Assembly (NCBI RefSeq): GCF_000510645.1
Contig: NZ_KI783301.1
Coordinates: 3,053,788-3,117,787, forward strand
Source of the DNA: Thermicanus aegyptius DSM 12793
GTDB taxonomy: Bacteria > Bacillota > Bacilli > Thermicanales > Thermicanaceae
Reading direction: 5' to 3'
DNA: 64,000 nt
Below, piece by piece: positions 3,285-61,845 of the stretch. Below the pieces are notes generated by a model. The model had not been told where the DNA came from. It worked only from the letters and a program-made list of their open reading frames with translations, and ran no database searches. How positions within the stretch are numbered: the first letter of the stretch is position 1; every line of letters starts with the position of its first letter. A program made the translations under genes and the position numbers.

Positions 3285-3313
3285 CAAAAAAAGATCCCCT
3301 CAAGCGGGGGATC
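3285..3313 (-). terminator. Terminator of the alpha/beta hydrolase gene
   Basis: On the minus strand GATCCCC (3313-3307) pairs with GGGGATC (3299-3293), loop of 7, followed by a run of seven or more T. The plus strand has no T run after the stem, so it mainly serves the minus-strand gene. Confidence 0.75.
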
Positions 3314-53697: not shown

Positions 53698-53725
53698 ATC
53701 CCCATCTTGTTCACAAGATGGGGAT
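53698..53725 (-). terminator. Hairpin after uvrA
   Basis: Perfect 12-bp stem ATCCCCATCTTG / CAAGATGGGGAT, loop of 4. Only short T stretches follow on either strand. Confidence 0.6.
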
Positions 53726-53736
53726 GATTTTCCTGT

Positions 53737-56622
53737 TTACACCTCTGCCGTTTCATTCGCTGCCGAAAAAGCGGAAGACCGCCTCTCCATCCGCTTCCGG
53801 TCCCGTTCCAACACCGGTTTTAAATATCGCCCCGTATAGGAGAGGGGATGTTCCGCCACTTCTTCCGGGGTCCCGGTGGCAACCACCGAACCTCCCCGGG
53901 CTCCCCCCTCAGGGCCCAAATCGATCAGGTAGTCGGCCGTCTTGATCACATCCAGGTTATGCTCAATGATAAGAACCGTATCCCCTTGGTCCACCAGACG
54001 CTTAAGCACATTGAGAAGGCGGCCGATATCATCCACGTGAAGCCCTGTGGTGGGCTCATCCAAGATATAAAGGGTTTTCCCCCGGCTCTTCCGGTAAAGC
54101 TCCGATGCCAGCTTCACCCGTTGTGCTTCCCCTCCGGAAAGGGTGGTCGCAGGCTGGCCCAATTTCATATACCCTAAACCCACGTCGTTTAAAACCTCCA
54201 GTTTCCGCTGGATTCGGGGAATATTGTTGAAAAACTGCAAGCCTTCTTCTACCGTCATCTCCAGAACTTCGGAGATATTTTTCCCTTTATAGCGAACCTC
54301 CAAGGTTTCCCGGTTATATCGCTTCCCCTTGCATACATCGCAAGGGACATACACATCAGGCAGGAAGTGCATCTCAATCTTTATGATGCCGTCCCCCTTG
54401 CAGGCCTCACACCGGCCCCCTTTCACATTGAAACTGAAGCGTCCCTTCTTATATCCTCTCATCTTTGCCTCATGGGTTGACGAGAAAAGATCCCTGATGT
54501 CGTCAAAGACACCGGTATAGGTGGCAGGGTTGGACCGTGGCGTCCGGCCGATGGGAGACTGGTCGATGTCAATCACCTTTTCCAGATGCTCCAATCCCTC
54601 AATTCCATCATGCTCGCCCGGCTTATGGCGGACTCCCTGCAGCGCTTTGGCCACTCCTTTGTAAATAATTTCGTTGACGAGGGTACTCTTCCCGGAGCCG
54701 GAGACACCGGTAACACAGGTAAAGGTCCCTAAGGGGATGGAGACGGTGATGTTCTTCAGGTTATTTTCCCGGGCCCCCTTCACCGTCAGCCATTTCCCGT
54801 TCGGCTTTCGCCGCGAAGCCGGAAGGGGAATAAAACGCTTCCCCGAAAGATATTGCCCCGTCAAAGATTTCTCATTCTCCATGAGCTCGCGGGGAGTTCC
54901 CTGGGCCACCACCTCGCCCCCGTGCGCTCCTGCGCCGGGGCCAATATCGATGATGTAATCGGAGGCAAGCATCGTATCCTCGTCATGTTCCACCACAATG
55001 AGGGTGTTGCCCAAATCCCGCATCTTCTTAAGGGCGGCGATCAGCCGATCGTTATCCCGTTGGTGAAGGCCGATGCTCGGCTCGTCCAAAATGTAAAGGA
55101 CACCCATAAGGCTTGACCCGATCTGCGTGGCCAGGCGGATCCGTTGGGCCTCCCCTCCCGAGAGGGTTCCGGCAGCCCGGCTTAAGGTGAGATAATCCAG
55201 CCCCACGTTGATCAAGAATCCCAGCCTTTCTTTGATCTCCTTTAAGATGAGGCGGGCAATTTTCTCCTCTTTCTCGGTTAATACCAATTGATCAAAATGG
55301 GCATAAGCCTCCCGGATGGAAAGGTCCGTCACATAGGCAATGTTCTTTCCCCCCACCTTTACGGCTAAACTCTCCGGCTTCAGCCTCTTCCCTTCACAGG
55401 CCGGACAAGGAGTTTGGCTCATGTAACCCCCCACCAGTTCCCGAACATATTCGGAAGTGGTCTCCCTATACCTCCGTGCCAGAGAGGGAATCACCCCTTC
55501 AAAGCGGATGGCCGTCTCCCTCGTATGCCCAAATTCGTTCGTATAACGGAAGGAAATCCGGTCCTCTCCCCCGTAGAGGAGAATCTTCTTCTCCTCTTCA
55601 CTCAAATCCTGGAAGGGACGATCCCGATCGATGCCGTAATGATCGGTTACCGCAGCAAGAAGCTGCTCATAATACTCACTGGTGGAATTGGCCCAGGGAT
55701 CAAATACCCCCTCACTTATGCTCTTCGAAGGATCGGGGATAACCAATTCAGGGTCTACCTCCATCTTGCTTCCCAGGCCGTCGCAGACCGGACAAGCCCC
55801 AAAAGGGCTGTTAAAGGAAAACATCCGGGGAGAAAGTTCAGGAATGCTGAACCCGCACTCGGGGCAGGCCAATTTCTCGCTAAAGAGGAGCTCTTCCACC
55901 CCGATCACTTCCACGATCACTTTCCCATCCCCCAGCTTAAGTCCCGTCTCTAAAGAATCTGCAAGGCGGGACTCGATCCCTTCCTTTATGATGATCCGGT
56001 CCACCACCACCTCAATCGTATGCTTCTTATTCTTCTCCAACTTAAACTCCTCGGAGAGATCCCGCACCTCTCCGTCTACCCGGACGCGGACAAATCCCTG
56101 TTTCCGAATTTCCTCAAAGAGTTTCGCATGTTCCCCTTTTTTCCCTTGTACCAGTGGCCCTAAAATCTGGAGCCGCGTCCTTTCCGGATATTCCATAATT
56201 CGGTCCACCATTTGCTCCACGGTCTGCGCGGCGATCTCGATGCCATGGATCGGACAGTAGGGTCTTCCGATACGGGCATAGAGAAGGCGGAGGTAATCAT
56301 AAATTTCCGTGACGGTTCCCACCGTGGAGCGGGGATTGCGGCTCGTCGTCTTTTGATCGATGGAGATGGCCGGGGAGAGACCCTCGATGGAATCCACATC
56401 CGGTTTATCCATCTGCCCTAAGAATTGGCGGGCATAGGCGGAGAGAGATTCTACATAGCGCCTTTGCCCTTCGGCATAAATGGTTTCAAAGGCCAGGGAG
56501 GACTTCCCGGACCCGGATAATCCCGTAAGGACGACAAACTGATTGCGCGGGATTTCCACATCAATATTCTTCAAGTTATTGACTCGTGCGCCTTTTATTA
56601 CAATTTTATCCTGCGCCATCAT
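53737..56622 (-). CDS. uvrA: Excinuclease ABC subunit A
   Basis: Damage-recognition ATPase of nucleotide excision repair. 961 residues: two ABC ATPase halves with Walker [14 protein letters not shown] and [16 protein letters not shown] signatures [13 protein letters not shown] and [13 protein letters not shown], and zinc modules with CPECGF and CEACKGDG / CDVCKGKR. Start overlaps the uvrB stop (ATGATG with TGA inside), so it is coupled to uvrB. Confidence 0.97.
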
Positions 56623-58604
56623 TTCGCCCCTTTCAGTTCAATAATGAGATCCCTCAGTTCTGCAGCCCGTTCAAAGAAGAGGTCCTTCGCCGCCTCTTTC
56701 ATTTCCTTCTCTAAGCGCGCAATCAGTTTCCTCCTCTCTTCCCTGTCCATGGCCAGGTCGCGGATGGAGGTCACATAATCGGCCTTCTTTTCCGCAGCAT
56801 GAGTTGCCTCAATCACTTCATAGACGCTCTTCTTAATCGTCTCCGGCGTAATGTGATGAATCCGGTTGTATTCCATCTGAATCGACCGCCTGCGGTTCGT
56901 TTCATCGATGGCCCGCCGCATCGATTCGGTTATGGTGTCGGCATACATAATCACCGTCCCATTCGCATTCCGGGCCGCTCGTCCGATCGTCTGAATGAGC
57001 GACGTTTCGCTGCGGAGAAATCCCTCTTTATCCGCATCGAGAATCGCCACGAGGGAGACTTCCGGAATATCCAGTCCTTCCCTCAGGAGATTAATTCCCA
57101 CCAAGACATCAAACTCTCCAAGGCGAAGTTCCCGGATGATCTGCATCCGTTCAATGGTCTTGATGTCGGAGTGGAGATAACGTACTTTAATCCCCGTCTC
57201 CTTCAGGTAATCGGTTAAGTCCTCCGCCATTTTTTTCGTCAAGGTGGTGACGAGAACCCGTTCATTCTGTTTGACCCGTTCCCGCACCTCATGGATGAGA
57301 TCGTCGATCTGTCCTTTAATCGGCCTGACGATCACCAGGGGATCCAGGAGACCGGTGGGTCGAATAATCTGTTCCACCACTTCCGGCGCTTTTTCCAATT
57401 CATAAGGCCCCGGCGTAGCCGAGACAAAGATGATCTGGTGGATGTGCTCTTCAAACTCTTCAAAGGTTAAGGGACGATTATCCGCCGCAGAGGGGAGGCG
57501 GAATCCGTGTTCAATCAAGGTCATTTTTCGGGAATGGTCTCCGTTATACATCCCCCTCAGCTGGGGAATGGTCACATGGGATTCGTCGATCACGATGAGA
57601 AAATCGTCGGGAAAATAATCCAAAAGCGTATAGGGAGGGGCACCGGGAGGCCTGCCCGTTAAATGCCGGGAATAGTTTTCGATGCCGGAACAAAAGCCCA
57701 TCTCTGAAAGCATCTCGATGTCGTAGCGGGTTCTCTGCTCCAACCGTTGCGCTTCCAAGAGCTTCCCTTCCGACTTTAGCTCTTGCAAACGCCGGTTAAG
57801 TTCCGCTTCAATGCTTTGAATCGCCCGCCGCATCGTTTCTTCCCGGGTCACATAGTGGGAGGCGGGGAAGATGGCGATATGGTCCCTTCGTCCCAGGACT
57901 TCACCGGTCAGGACATCAATCTCGGTAATTCGTTCAATCTCATCGCCGAAAAACTCGATGCGTACCGCCTGTTCCCCCAAGGAAACAGGAAAAACCTCCA
58001 GCACATCCCCCCGAACCCGAAAGGTGCCCCGGGTGAAATGGAGATCGTTCCGGGTGTATTGAATATCCACCAATTTTCGCAGAATCTCCTGCCGGCTTCG
58101 TTCCATGCCGACCCGGAGGGATAAGACCAGGTCCCGGTACTCATTCGGATCCCCTAATCCATAAATGGCAGAGACGGAGGCCACAATAATCACATCGGAC
58201 CGTTCAAAGAGGGCGGACGTGGCCGAATGGCGCAATTTATCAATCTCATCATTTATGCTGGAATCCTTCTCGATATAGGTATCGGTCGAAGGAATATAAG
58301 CTTCCGGCTGATAATAATCGTAATAGCTGACGAAATACTCTACCGCATTGTTTGGGAAAAACTCCCGAAATTCGCTGGCGAGCTGGGCGGCTAACGTTTT
58401 GTTATGGGCAATCACCAATGTGGGCCGATTGACCCGGGCGATCACTTGGGCGATGGTATAGGTTTTCCCCGTCCCCGTCGCTCCCAACAAGGTCTGAAAC
58501 TTCTTTCCGGACCGTATGCCCTCAACCAGCTTTTCAATCGCTTGCGGCTGGTCTCCGCTCGGTTGATACGGGGAGATCAATTCAAAAGGCCGGTTTTCCA
58601 CCAC
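56619..58604 (-). CDS. uvrB: Excinuclease ABC subunit B
   Basis: Helicase-like core of the UvrABC nuclease. 661 residues: Walker [11 protein letters not shown], beta-hairpin [16 protein letters not shown] that opens damaged DNA, DESH box IVIDESHVT, motif VI IGRAARN, and a C-terminal UvrC-binding coiled coil ([20 protein letters not shown]). Starts at GTG 58604 with AAGGAAG upstream. A LexA box and an extended -10 promoter lie upstream. Confidence 0.97.
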
Positions 58605-58633
58605 AATTCTTCCTTTCTCTTCATCATGTTAAC

Positions 58634-58641
58634 ATTATAAC
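58634..58641 (-). promoter_or_regulatory. uvrB extended -10 promoter
   Basis: Minus strand TG-T-TATAAT (58641ff to 58634), start near 58627. The -35 region is poor (TTTTCA at 16 bases). Lies between the LexA box and the GTG start of uvrB. Confidence 0.6.
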
Positions 58642-58661
58642 ATAATCTTTCCCTTTGAAAA

Positions 58662-58685
58662 CAAAAAAACGGAACATGAGTTCCG
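58662..58685 (-). promoter_or_regulatory. LexA (DinR) box of uvrBA that also forms a hairpin followed by T7
   Basis: CGGAACATGAGTTCCG (58670-58685) contains GAAC-N4-GTTC, the Gram-positive LexA operator core. On the minus strand the same 6-bp palindrome is followed by TTTTTTT, so it also looks like the terminator of minJ. Known SOS control of uvrBA in B. subtilis supports the operator role. Confidence 0.75.
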
Positions 58686-58795
58686 AAATCATTCATTGGA
58701 TAGATCCGTTTCAGCTGGCCAGCGTTTCGTCTTTCAACGGCGGTTCGCTACGATCCTGAGCCTTTCATACGAATCCTTCACGAATCTTTTTCTGC

Positions 58796-60094
58796 TCAAC
58801 CTTGGAGCACCTCATTCCCTTTACTGTCCTCTTCTGCGGTCCCAGGTTTTTGCTTGGAAGAGAATCGACCACCCAAGAGTAAACCGAAAAGGCTCCTCGG
58901 CGGGGATGGGATCTTCTCATGCCACTTCTCTCCAGGAGCAAAGATTAATCCTAAAAGATAATGCTCTCCCAAATAAAGAGACCGCTGGGGAAATGTAATG
59001 TTCCCCTCCCGATTCAACACTTCCAGCTTGCAAAAAGCGGAATTTCTCTGCAAAGCCTTGTAAAAAGAAGATTCATCCCTCACCGGAATGCCGTTTGCCT
59101 TTGTCACCCGATCGCCCACCTCGATTCCCATCTCTTGGGCCGGGCTTTTCGGGAGCACGGCCAATACGGACAGACCTTCGTAGGAATTTGAAAAATATGG
59201 AGGGCTTTGCCGCTCCCTCTTCTCTCTGAACCGTTGAAAGAGAAACAGTAATACGTAGAAGAGGAGCAAAAGAGGAAGGGCCCAAAGGGGACGGTAGAGG
59301 GAAACGACGGCAAAGATCGACTCACAAATCCCCCTTCCCATCCGCACGAGGGAGATTCTCCTTAACCCCGTAAGGGGATGGGTTTTAATAAAAAAATGTC
59401 TTGCCCCGATAAGGACCGGCACGAAAAGTGGAACTGCCCCGCCATGGCTCCAGGAAACGGGAAGGATGGGCCACCAGGAAAGAAATGAAGGCAGCATTCC
59501 TCCACCGCCGGGAAAAGGGACAAAGAAGAACAGGGGGATGGGCCAAATTCTTTGCAATAAATATCCGCCAATGGCCTTTCCCCTCGAACCGAGAATGTGA
59601 ATGGGTTGAATCGTGGAAAAACGCTCCGTAAGGAGCAAGAAGCCTTCCAATAAGGTTAATCCGCCGATAAAGAAGAGATAAGAGGGAATATGAGCATGGT
59701 TCAACAGGTTCGACAGCCATGGGCTTGATCCCTTTTCCACTCGCAAAAATCCGTTTTGTTCTAAGTAGGCGAAAAGGGTAAAAAGGAACATTCCGACCCT
59801 CAGATCCAAGAAAGAAAGGCGAACCAATCCGGATAAGAGGGCGAGGAGATAGATGATCCACATCTCTTCCATTCGTACTTGAAGGCCCAAAAGGCTTACG
59901 AAAAGAGAGAAGAAAAAACCCCCTGCGAGACTACGCCATAAAACGCTTCCCATTCGATGCGTATGCGGAGAGATCCGCACCTTAAACCATTTTCGTTCCA
60001 ATCTTTCCTGGGTGAGGTGCAGCAGCCAAAAGAAAAAAAGCGAAAGAAGAAGAAAGGCGATGGGTACAAGATATGGGATGACGACGTAGGGCAT
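58796..60094 (-). CDS. minJ: Cell-division topology factor MinJ-like PDZ membrane protein
   Basis: 432 residues: about six to eight membrane segments over the first 320, then a PDZ domain (about 320-390) with GLSVLAVLPKSPAQEMGIEVGDRV. In B. subtilis MinJ (YvjD) bridges DivIVA and MinD and the gene lies between ctpB and uvrBA, as here. Start ATG 60094 has GGAGAGG upstream. Assignment rests on layout and synteny, as the membrane part is weakly conserved. Confidence 0.75.
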   Translation of the reverse strand: MPYVVIPYLVPIAFLLLSLFFFWLLHLTQERLERKWFKVRISPHTHRMGSVLWRSLAGGFFFSLFVSLLGLQVRMEEMWIIYLLALLSGLVRLSFLDLRVGMFLFTLFAYLEQNGFLRVEKGSSPWLSNLLNHAHIPSYLFFIGGLTLLEGFLLLTERFSTIQPIHILGSRGKAIGGYLLQRIWPIPLFFFVPFPGGGGMLPSFLSWWPILPVSWSHGGAVPLFVPVLIGARHFFIKTHPLTGLRRISLVRMGRGICESIFAVVSLYRPLWALPLLLLFYVLLFLFQRFREKRERQSPPYFSNSYEGLSVLAVLPKSPAQEMGIEVGDRVTKANGIPVRDESSFYKALQRNSAFCKLEVLNREGNITFPQRSLYLGEHYLLGLIFAPGEKWHEKIPSPPRSLFGLLLGGRFSSKQKPGTAEEDSKGNEVLQG

Positions 60095-60195
60095 AAAAAT
60101 CCTCTCCACTTCTGTCTATAGTCCGTACAGTATCACAGAATCCCCGGCCGCGGGATGGCGCAAAGATGAACCGATCGATTGGGAAGGAAGGTAAG

Positions 60196-60282: not shown

Positions 60283-61845
60283 CTACTTTACCATACCCGC
60301 GAGCAGGGTATAAGCAGCTTGCAACTGGGCGTCATTCGCGGGATTTTTTATTTTCGCGATGAGCTGTTCCTGCAATTTTTCCGCCGTAATCTTATCAACG
60401 ACCCCGGTTACGGGGAGCTTATTTTTCTGTTGGAAGAGACGGACGCCCGCTTCCGTCGAAGCATCGAAATAGCCATCGTTTCGTGAAAGAGAGTATCCCA
60501 ACCCCGCCAAAACTTTCTGCAGGTTTTGAACTTCGGATCCGTTCATTTCCCGTTTTAGGGGAGTCTCCGCGTGTATGGGGGCGGCCTGAAAATATTCGGG
60601 TTGATCGACCGTAAGGGTAGGTTGAATCCCTTTCTTGTGAATCCAGGTTCCGTCCGGCGTTAACCATTTGGCGACGGTAATCTTTATGGTACTTCCATCT
60701 TTCAAATCTTTGGTTACCTGGACAGTTCCTTTACCAAACGAGTTCTTCCCTACAATCGGATAACCTGCCGCCTTCAGGGCCCCCGCCAATATCTCGGAAG
60801 CGCTGGCGCTCCCTTCATCGATGAGGGCAACGATGGGGAAGCCTTCTCCCTTCAACTTCGAAGTGTACTTTACTCTTTTTCCGTCCCTGTCCTCTATCTG
60901 AAGAATAACCCCTTGTTTGGGGATGATTCTTTCACCGATCGATAATACCGCATCGAGATAACCTCCCGGATTGCCGCGGAGATCAATGACCACCCCTTTG
61001 ACCCCCTCTTGCTTTAAGCGGTCGAATTCCTCAAAAAAACGATCCGCCGTATTTTCCGAGAAGGAGGTGATTTCCAATCTCCCCAGCTTCTTTCCATCCA
61101 CCACCTCGACACTGCGGTAAACCGATTCCAAAGGAATGGTATCCCGGGTTACAATCACCGTGAGGGGATCCGTTAACCCTTCACGAAGAATCCCTAATTT
61201 CACCTTGGTTCCCTTGGGCCCCCGAATCTTTTTAACCGCTTCTTGCAAGTCAAGCCCTTCAATATTCACCCCATCGACGGAGATGATCTGGTCATTCGGC
61301 TTAAGTCCCGCCTTCTCCGCCGGGGAATCCTTAAAGGGTGAAACGATGGTAACTCTGTTATTAAGCATCATCACCTCAGTTCCTATGCCTTCAAAGGATG
61401 AGCTCAGGGAATCCTGAAATTGAGCGTTCTCCTCCTTATCCATGTAGGTGGTATAGGGATCGTCCAAAGCCTCGATCATCCCTTTAATCGCCCCATCGAG
61501 AAGCCGGTTTTTGTCGAGGGCCTTTTGGTCATAATAGGAACTTAAGATCATTTGATACGCCTCGGCCAATTTGGAAAACTCGGAAGGAAGTCCTTGCGAA
61601 TTTTCATTTCCGGCGGCCTGTACCTGACCCTTAACAGGAGAGGAAGCGGGTTGGTCTCCATTCAATGCGAGGCTGTGGTTGGTATCCCCCACCAAAAGGG
61701 AGGAAAGAACCTTCCCCATCGCCTCCTGCGTAGGAGGAGAGAAGAGGAGCAAAGCCGTCAGCCCGATGGCTAATACCGCCGACACGAGGAGAGTCATTTT
61801 TTTTCGGTCCAATTTCCTCACAGGGTCCACCGCCTTTATCATCAT
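60283..61845 (-). CDS. ctpB: S41 C-terminal processing protease (CtpB type)
   Basis: 520 residues: N-terminal anchor (TLLVSAVLAIGLTALLLF), PDZ domain (about 150-235, SPAEKAGLKPNDQIISVDG), S41 protease with Ser348 (DEGSASASEI), Lys372 and Gln376 (FGKGTVQ), and a C-terminal peptidoglycan-binding domain (LQKVLAGLGYSL ... GVRLFQQKNKLPVTG). In B. subtilis CtpB cuts SpoIVFA to switch on sigma-K. No good ribosome-binding site at 61845; a GTG at 61821 (MRKLDRKKMTLL) is better placed after GGCGGTGG. Confidence 0.92.
   Translation of the reverse strand: MMIKAVDPVRKLDRKKMTLLVSAVLAIGLTALLLFSPPTQEAMGKVLSSLLVGDTNHSLALNGDQPASSPVKGQVQAAGNENSQGLPSEFSKLAEAYQMILSSYYDQKALDKNRLLDGAIKGMIEALDDPYTTYMDKEENAQFQDSLSSSFEGIGTEVMMLNNRVTIVSPFKDSPAEKAGLKPNDQIISVDGVNIEGLDLQEAVKKIRGPKGTKVKLGILREGLTDPLTVIVTRDTIPLESVYRSVEVVDGKKLGRLEITSFSENTADRFFEEFDRLKQEGVKGVVIDLRGNPGGYLDAVLSIGERIIPKQGVILQIEDRDGKRVKYTSKLKGEGFPIVALIDEGSASASEILAGALKAAGYPIVGKNSFGKGTVQVTKDLKDGSTIKITVAKWLTPDGTWIHKKGIQPTLTVDQPEYFQAAPIHAETPLKREMNGSEVQNLQKVLAGLGYSLSRNDGYFDASTEAGVRLFQQKNKLPVTGVVDKITAEKLQEQLIAKIKNPANDAQLQAAYTLLAGMVK

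Follow-up and report, generated by a model that had tools for sequence, protein, structure and literature searches.

A palindrome upstream of uvrBA as a predicted LexA operator and possible terminator of minJ

The palindrome in the minJ–uvrB gap

Can one short palindrome hold the SOS repressor of one transcription unit and also end the transcription of the unit in front of it? This question is raised by the gap between a MinJ-like gene and uvrB in a 64 000-nt stretch of DNA (hereafter, the window) that belongs to a genome of 3.66 Mb in a single contig. Judged by its gene content, the class is probably Bacilli. The genomes used for comparison included none other from the same genus or family and five more from the same order. 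Four genes on the minus strand follow one another at this locus: a ctpB-like gene (60283–61845), the MinJ-like gene (58796–60109), uvrB (56619–58604; TIGR00631, 1112.7 bits) and uvrA (53737–56622), which overlaps the end of uvrB to form a uvrBA operon. We take the second gene to be minJ from gene order, from a PDZ domain at residues 306–356 and from homologues that lie upstream of uvrB in relatives; no NCBIfam model matched its product above the cut-off of that model. Just past uvrA, a hairpin of 11 bp at 53699–53724 is flanked by T-rich tails, one on each strand; the uvrBA operon probably ends there, at a terminator far stronger than the hairpin considered below (58670–58685).

The minJ–uvrB intergenic stretch is 191 nt long (58605–58795). 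On its minus strand it contains CGGAACTCATGTTCCG at 58685–58670, followed at once by seven T (T7) at 58669–58663; on the plus strand, 58663–58685 reads AAAAAAACGGAACATGAGTTCCG, and 58672–58683 reads GAACATGAGTTC. In the direction in which minJ and uvrB are transcribed the palindrome is CGGAAC-TCAT-GTTCCG and is continued by TTTTTTTG. A LexA-like operator, the 14-mer GGAACTCATGTTCC with the full GAACN4GTTC core, occupies 58671–58684, and a hairpin of six pairs (four of them G-C) with a 4-nt loop occupies 58670–58685, its outer C-G pair lying outside the 14-mer. T7 can be read as the U-tract of a terminator or as an A/T tract of the uvrB promoter. Farther along the minus strand are a weak −35-like hexamer, TTTTCA (58656–58661, from a consensus scan only, 16 nt ahead of the −10), and a TATAAT box (58634–58639) with TG before it. 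This extended −10, TGTTATAAT, which follows CGGAACTCATGTTCCG-TTTTTTT in the gap, presumably belongs to the uvrBA promoter, and its spacing is conserved in relatives. A sequence-only reading of this DNA had described the palindrome, the 6-bp hairpin and the seven T at this place, and our own reading of the letters confirmed both the coordinates and the description.

In this gap the LexA core, and above all the hairpin with at least six T, exceeds chance expectation. The core arose in 18 of 5000 shuffles of the 191-nt stretch, and a 6-bp hairpin with at least four G-C pairs followed by T6 in only one of 5000; the 64-kb window has two such hairpins, at 58670–58685 and near 3292. The only place in the genome with the composite GGAACN4GTTCCNTTTT is the minJ–uvrB gap. 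The bare core GAACN4GTTC was rejected as a genome-wide finder of the SOS regulon, as it occurs at 40 places compared with 41 for the reversed control pattern. The window has two of these places (0.95 expected; 25 of 100 shuffles reach two), and the other 38 are mostly within open reading frames (ORFs). One of the sequences with this core, AGAACATATGTTCC at L020:1500-1513 (G000:C1:1031800-1031813), lies in the same genome between a divergent gene for a Na/Ca exchanger and a 170-aa ORF that matched no Pfam family, and is a candidate for a further LexA site.

The predicted LexA operator

The 14-mer at 58671–58684 is very probably a LexA operator. All eight bases of the core are matched (8/8), and the distance from the end of the operator to TATAAT, 31 nt, is the commonest single value at uvrB boxes of the class (20/75). 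The spacings between box end and −10 at these boxes peak at 30–32 nt (32/75) and at 19–21 nt (15/75), and 11 of the 75 have no −10 by the motif used. The boxes derive from the upstream regions of 112 class uvrB loci, taken from 249 matching genomes, among the better-scoring matches listed; 32 loci had no box at −170 to −40, and the 80 boxes in the others were reduced to 75 by removal of duplicates. A scan of genome contigs yielded mainly Clostridia and other distant matches, many of them boxless, and the 80 loci from that scan were kept out of the counts. For comparison, lexA boxes (49 loci, three without a box, 45 boxes after removal of duplicates) and recA boxes (50 loci, four without a box, 44 after removal of duplicates) were collected from 60 genomes, the genome's own lexA and recA being treated separately.

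LexA was found in all 60 genomes searched, including the one studied here (TIGR00498, 260.9 bits, above the cut-off), in which the boxes of lexA and recA themselves are imperfect and lie at −74 and −97, respectively. The LexA site that had been proposed upstream of uvrB is thus supported by its spacing to the −10 and by the same architecture in class relatives.

The Gram-positive LexA (DinR) consensus is CGAACN4GTTCG, with outer C and G, and the outer bases of the window operator are G and C. This difference speaks for a palindrome that simply ends minJ and resembles a LexA box by accident, as does the lack of an 8-of-8 box in all four order relatives that have a uvrB match, three of which have 7-of-8 matches (at −329; at −147 and −341; at −283). 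An accidental likeness is nevertheless most improbable, since the genome encodes LexA, the gene downstream is a core SOS gene and the full core has the spacing to the −10 that is found most often. Furthermore, G and C are also the outer bases at other uvrB boxes of the class, and for that reason they were not treated as excluding an operator. According to the available part of one report, LexA of C. difficile bound the uvrB operator AGGAACTAATGTTCGA in a surface plasmon resonance (SPR) test (PMC4234289).

In two of these four order relatives, minJ and uvrB overlap. At L105 and L106 (order relatives G001 and G002) the gap between the two genes is −4, with neither a LexA box nor a terminator between them, and uvrB may therefore be co-transcribed with minJ there.

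Hairpin and T-run: terminator tail or promoter tract

That the predicted operator also terminates transcription has a chance of about even, and a terminator function of 58663–58685 is plausible from the sequence. Of the proposal that the site ends minJ, the part that rests on context holds up well; the hairpin itself is weak, and the T-run can alternatively be read as an A/T tract belonging to the promoter.

As for context, the palindrome is the only terminator candidate in the 191-nt gap. At many class loci uvrB is preceded by a minJ homologue. Under a loose rule, 25 of 31 minJ–uvrB junctions (33 loci less two with overlapping minJ and uvrB, the window being one of the 31) have a candidate at −9 kcal/mol or better. 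The gaps range from 88 to 1128 nt, some contain other genes and several junctions come from one genus. A similar loose rule applied to the window gives 181 candidates of −9 or better on the two strands, about 1.4 per kb, of which 36 are non-coding; therefore some of the 25 junction candidates must be due to chance, above all in long gaps. The LexA palindrome itself is the best candidate at the junction of genome G257. In G016 the best one is a hairpin with a 9-bp stem at its core, GGGAACAAC/GTTGTTCCC, in which the right half of the LexA box is paired with an arm outside the box. A test of complementarity gave no significant result: another terminator was lacking at four of seven terminator-like boxes and at nine of 38 others (P 0.17).

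As for strength, the bare hairpin at 58670–58685 has −7.7 kcal/mol, and would be weaker still in hot-growing cells. The RNA fold of 46 nt has −9.3 kcal/mol and a centroid of −8.4 in which this is the only hairpin (z −1.7; folds as good or better in 12 of 200 shuffles). Among the 18 strictly T-tailed non-coding candidates in the window (at least six T in eight) it has the best T-tail score; 13 of the other 17 lie between −11 and −25 kcal/mol and four are weaker than it. Terminator-like sites are in themselves common: a general scan found 22 in 9 kb, and shuffles gave 12.0 (sd 3.3).

A/T tracts upstream of a −35 region, resembling UP elements, can help promoters. It may well be, at somewhat less than an even chance, that the palindrome is a LexA operator only, that T7 is such a tract aiding the uvrBA promoter and that minJ transcripts enter uvrB or end in some other way. 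The weakness of the hairpin is in keeping with this reading, and so are the flanks of other LexA boxes. TTTT and AAAA were found within 12 nt after 27 and 13 of 75 uvrB boxes, and after 17 and 16 of 44 recA boxes, respectively. In the window genome itself T5 follows the recA box and T4 the lexA box, both without a good stem, and A/T tracts are commoner where the box stands 30–32 nt from the −10 (17/32) than at 19–21 nt (3/15; P 0.056). A T-tract next to a LexA box thus seems to be in good part a promoter habit: such tracts, or A-tracts, are common there without any stem, so the T-run may serve the promoter, and a palindromic operator that happens to lie beside one will look like a terminator. 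On the other hand, T-tracts outnumber A-tracts about two to one at uvrB and also prevail at lexA (8 vs 2 of 45), unlike at recA, and the excess at uvrB mildly favours the terminator reading. An operator without terminator function also has to accommodate a joint occurrence of outer pair and T7 that is rare, and a junction of a kind at which most of those examined have a terminator, the window's having no other.

Several tests bear on the class as a whole, those by genus using one locus per genus, the first by number. The flanks outside the 14-mer pair in 22 of 75 cases, equal to the 22.3 in shuffles; two flank results stood out (uvrB flank 4, P 0.008; lexA flank 2, P 0.031), and relatedness may explain them. 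In a symmetric stem test of outer pairing against the T-run the association was not significant (8/24 vs 8/37 genera, P 0.24; Mann–Whitney P 0.09). These two results, together with the T-tract habit, are the main evidence against the terminator reading. When arms outside the box were allowed, hairpins of −7 or better were found in eight of 25 T-run genera and in four of 41 others (P 0.027; Mann–Whitney P 0.015). This test was designed after the junction examples had been seen, its P values are uncorrected for several tests or for shared ancestry, and seven of the eight strong T-run genera are from one family, f7; it gives a weak indication of a class-wide terminator signal. Against shuffled upstream sequence the two groups are alike, with p of 0.1 or less for the hairpins of five of 25 T-run genera and eight of 41 others.

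Relatives, proposed insulation and known systems

The composite recurs at uvrB in family f7, where 20 of 41 genomes have GGAACN4GTTCCNTTTT and 19 of these 20 have it upstream of uvrB. Counted as matches, 20 of 21 are at uvrB (one genome matches on both strands), and the reversed control gave two hits. The uvrB regions were read in 39 of the 40 f7 genomes with a uvrB match, G263 being left out. Genus g9 has AGGGAAC/GTTCCCT with T4 or more, and with differing loops, in 15/15 genomes; in G261 the outer C-G pair is identical to that of the window. In four genomes (G016, G265, G269 and G189) the 5' partner of the arm beside the T-run lies outside the LexA box, and these outside-arm stems argue against a purely operator role. 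In the last three, which have an imperfect LexA box, the upstream arm is GGGAAC, GGGAGC or GGGGGC and pairs with GTTCCC or GCTCCC beside the T-run. Other f7 genera (g40, and two of three in g98) keep the T-run without a good stem, which fits the promoter reading. In the class as a whole, SGAACN4GTTCSNTTTT has matches in 78 of 250 genomes; by hand count there are 115 matches, and the reversed control has 65 in 47 genomes. No more than 12 matches could be placed at uvrB by coordinates, so that class-wide the composite is less than twofold above background and is not special to uvrB.

The explanation that we prefer, at a shade under an even chance, is a dual use in which the palindrome is both the LexA operator of uvrBA and a short intrinsic terminator of minJ, and acts as an insulator. 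From the observed sequence, geometry, rarity and recurrence at uvrB we infer the following course of events. LexA would bind the palindrome just upstream of the −35 region of uvrBA and bar polymerase from the promoter until DNA is damaged, and while bound it would also be a roadblock for polymerases coming from minJ. The same sequence, with the outer C-G pair and T7, would form a short intrinsic terminator halting many minJ transcripts ahead of uvrB. Once LexA is gone, the hairpin and T-run would still halt minJ polymerases and the output of uvrBA would be set by its own promoter. There would be a cost, in that polymerases passing from minJ would displace LexA. The two uses would share the same DNA and exclude each other in time, with no cooperation; since minJ transcripts would be kept out of uvrBA in both states of LexA, the predicted device is an insulator and not a coupling device.

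A coupling had in fact been suggested earlier, in which LexA bound to the palindrome strengthens termination of minJ and DNA damage raises read-through into uvrBA. The operator and hairpin sites do overlap, and transcription from minJ reaches the T-run 2–8 nt past the 14-bp operator. Given the footprint of RNA polymerase, an enzyme stopped at T7 would have crossed the operator and would be covering it, so LexA could hardly be there to help the hairpin, and the two would act at different moments; the suggestion is thus unsupported, and nothing in the sequence comparison demands cooperation. LexA bound before the hairpin forms could be a roadblock, and LexA is among the roadblocks listed in the available part of a review (PMC10310618). 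In the accessible portions of other reports, Mfd frees polymerase that LacI has stalled and the roadblocks by CcpA and CodY are weaker in Mfd mutants (PMC4132739), and a roadblock assists hairpin termination by RNA polymerase I (PMC12366685). By analogy, cooperation between LexA and a hairpin would be possible in principle; it is doubted here because LexA would occupy the very DNA that encodes the hairpin, and we regard coupling as highly unlikely.

More generally, we tentatively suggest, as one possibility among several, that a LexA operator with an intrinsic terminator may be a recurrent uvrB device in several lineages of the class (the window genome, f7 and G016), insulating SOS control from upstream read-through in the repressed and in the induced state, with outside arms supplying the stem where the palindrome is imperfect.

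The components have close counterparts among known systems. Like the uvrB operator of Bacillus-type LexA (DinR), the window site has a GAACN4GTTC core upstream of uvrB at a fixed distance from the −10; it differs in having G/C in place of the outer C/G, and in the extra outer C-G pair and T7. The site shares with intrinsic (Rho-independent) terminators a G-C-containing hairpin that leads directly into a T-run, and a position between a stop codon and the gene that follows. With 6 bp and −7.7 kcal/mol, however, its stem is less stable than most of the window's T-tailed non-coding candidates, and the element stands 24 nt upstream of a −10 box, unlike an ordinary terminator. In Neisseria and Pasteurellaceae, DNA uptake signals serve as terminator stems, as far as the available text of that study goes (PMC1852404). 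There, too, a DNA motif with another task forms the stem, but the motifs are paired and number in the hundreds, whereas the window has a single repressor operator. The E. coli uvrB promoter region, with its LexA boxes, shares LexA control of uvrB and the presence of more than one promoter; its operator sequence is unrelated, and a terminator hairpin is not mentioned in the available part of that account (PMC6015884). In a full-text literature search, no title or opening of an abstract described a LexA operator doubling as an intrinsic terminator. Thus the parts are known, and their combination at a LexA operator is new as far as that search shows.

If the dual use is true, the end of one transcription unit and the control of the following one reside in a single 23-bp element, which protects SOS control of uvrBA against read-through even without LexA. 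There is also a warning in these results, in that T- or A-tracts next to operators are frequent at SOS promoters of the class and terminator predictors can mistake LexA operators for terminators.

In all 15 genomes of genus g9 (L360-L362, L365, L368, L370-L377, L379 and L380), the terminator-like LexA box at uvrB is preceded by a TATAAT at a distance of 34–41 nt. This TATAAT is probably a second uvrB promoter, which would transcribe through the box, and the g9 device could then also attenuate that promoter. A TATAAT upstream of the box is a further likeness of g9 to E. coli uvrB, as the latter is described in the accessible part of its report (PMC6015884). In genus g19 (for example G084, G096 and G247), LexA-like palindromes with T-tracts occur at other loci: CGAACTTTTGTTCGTTTTT and CGAACACACGTTCGTTTTT recur there, each in 12 genomes by hand count.
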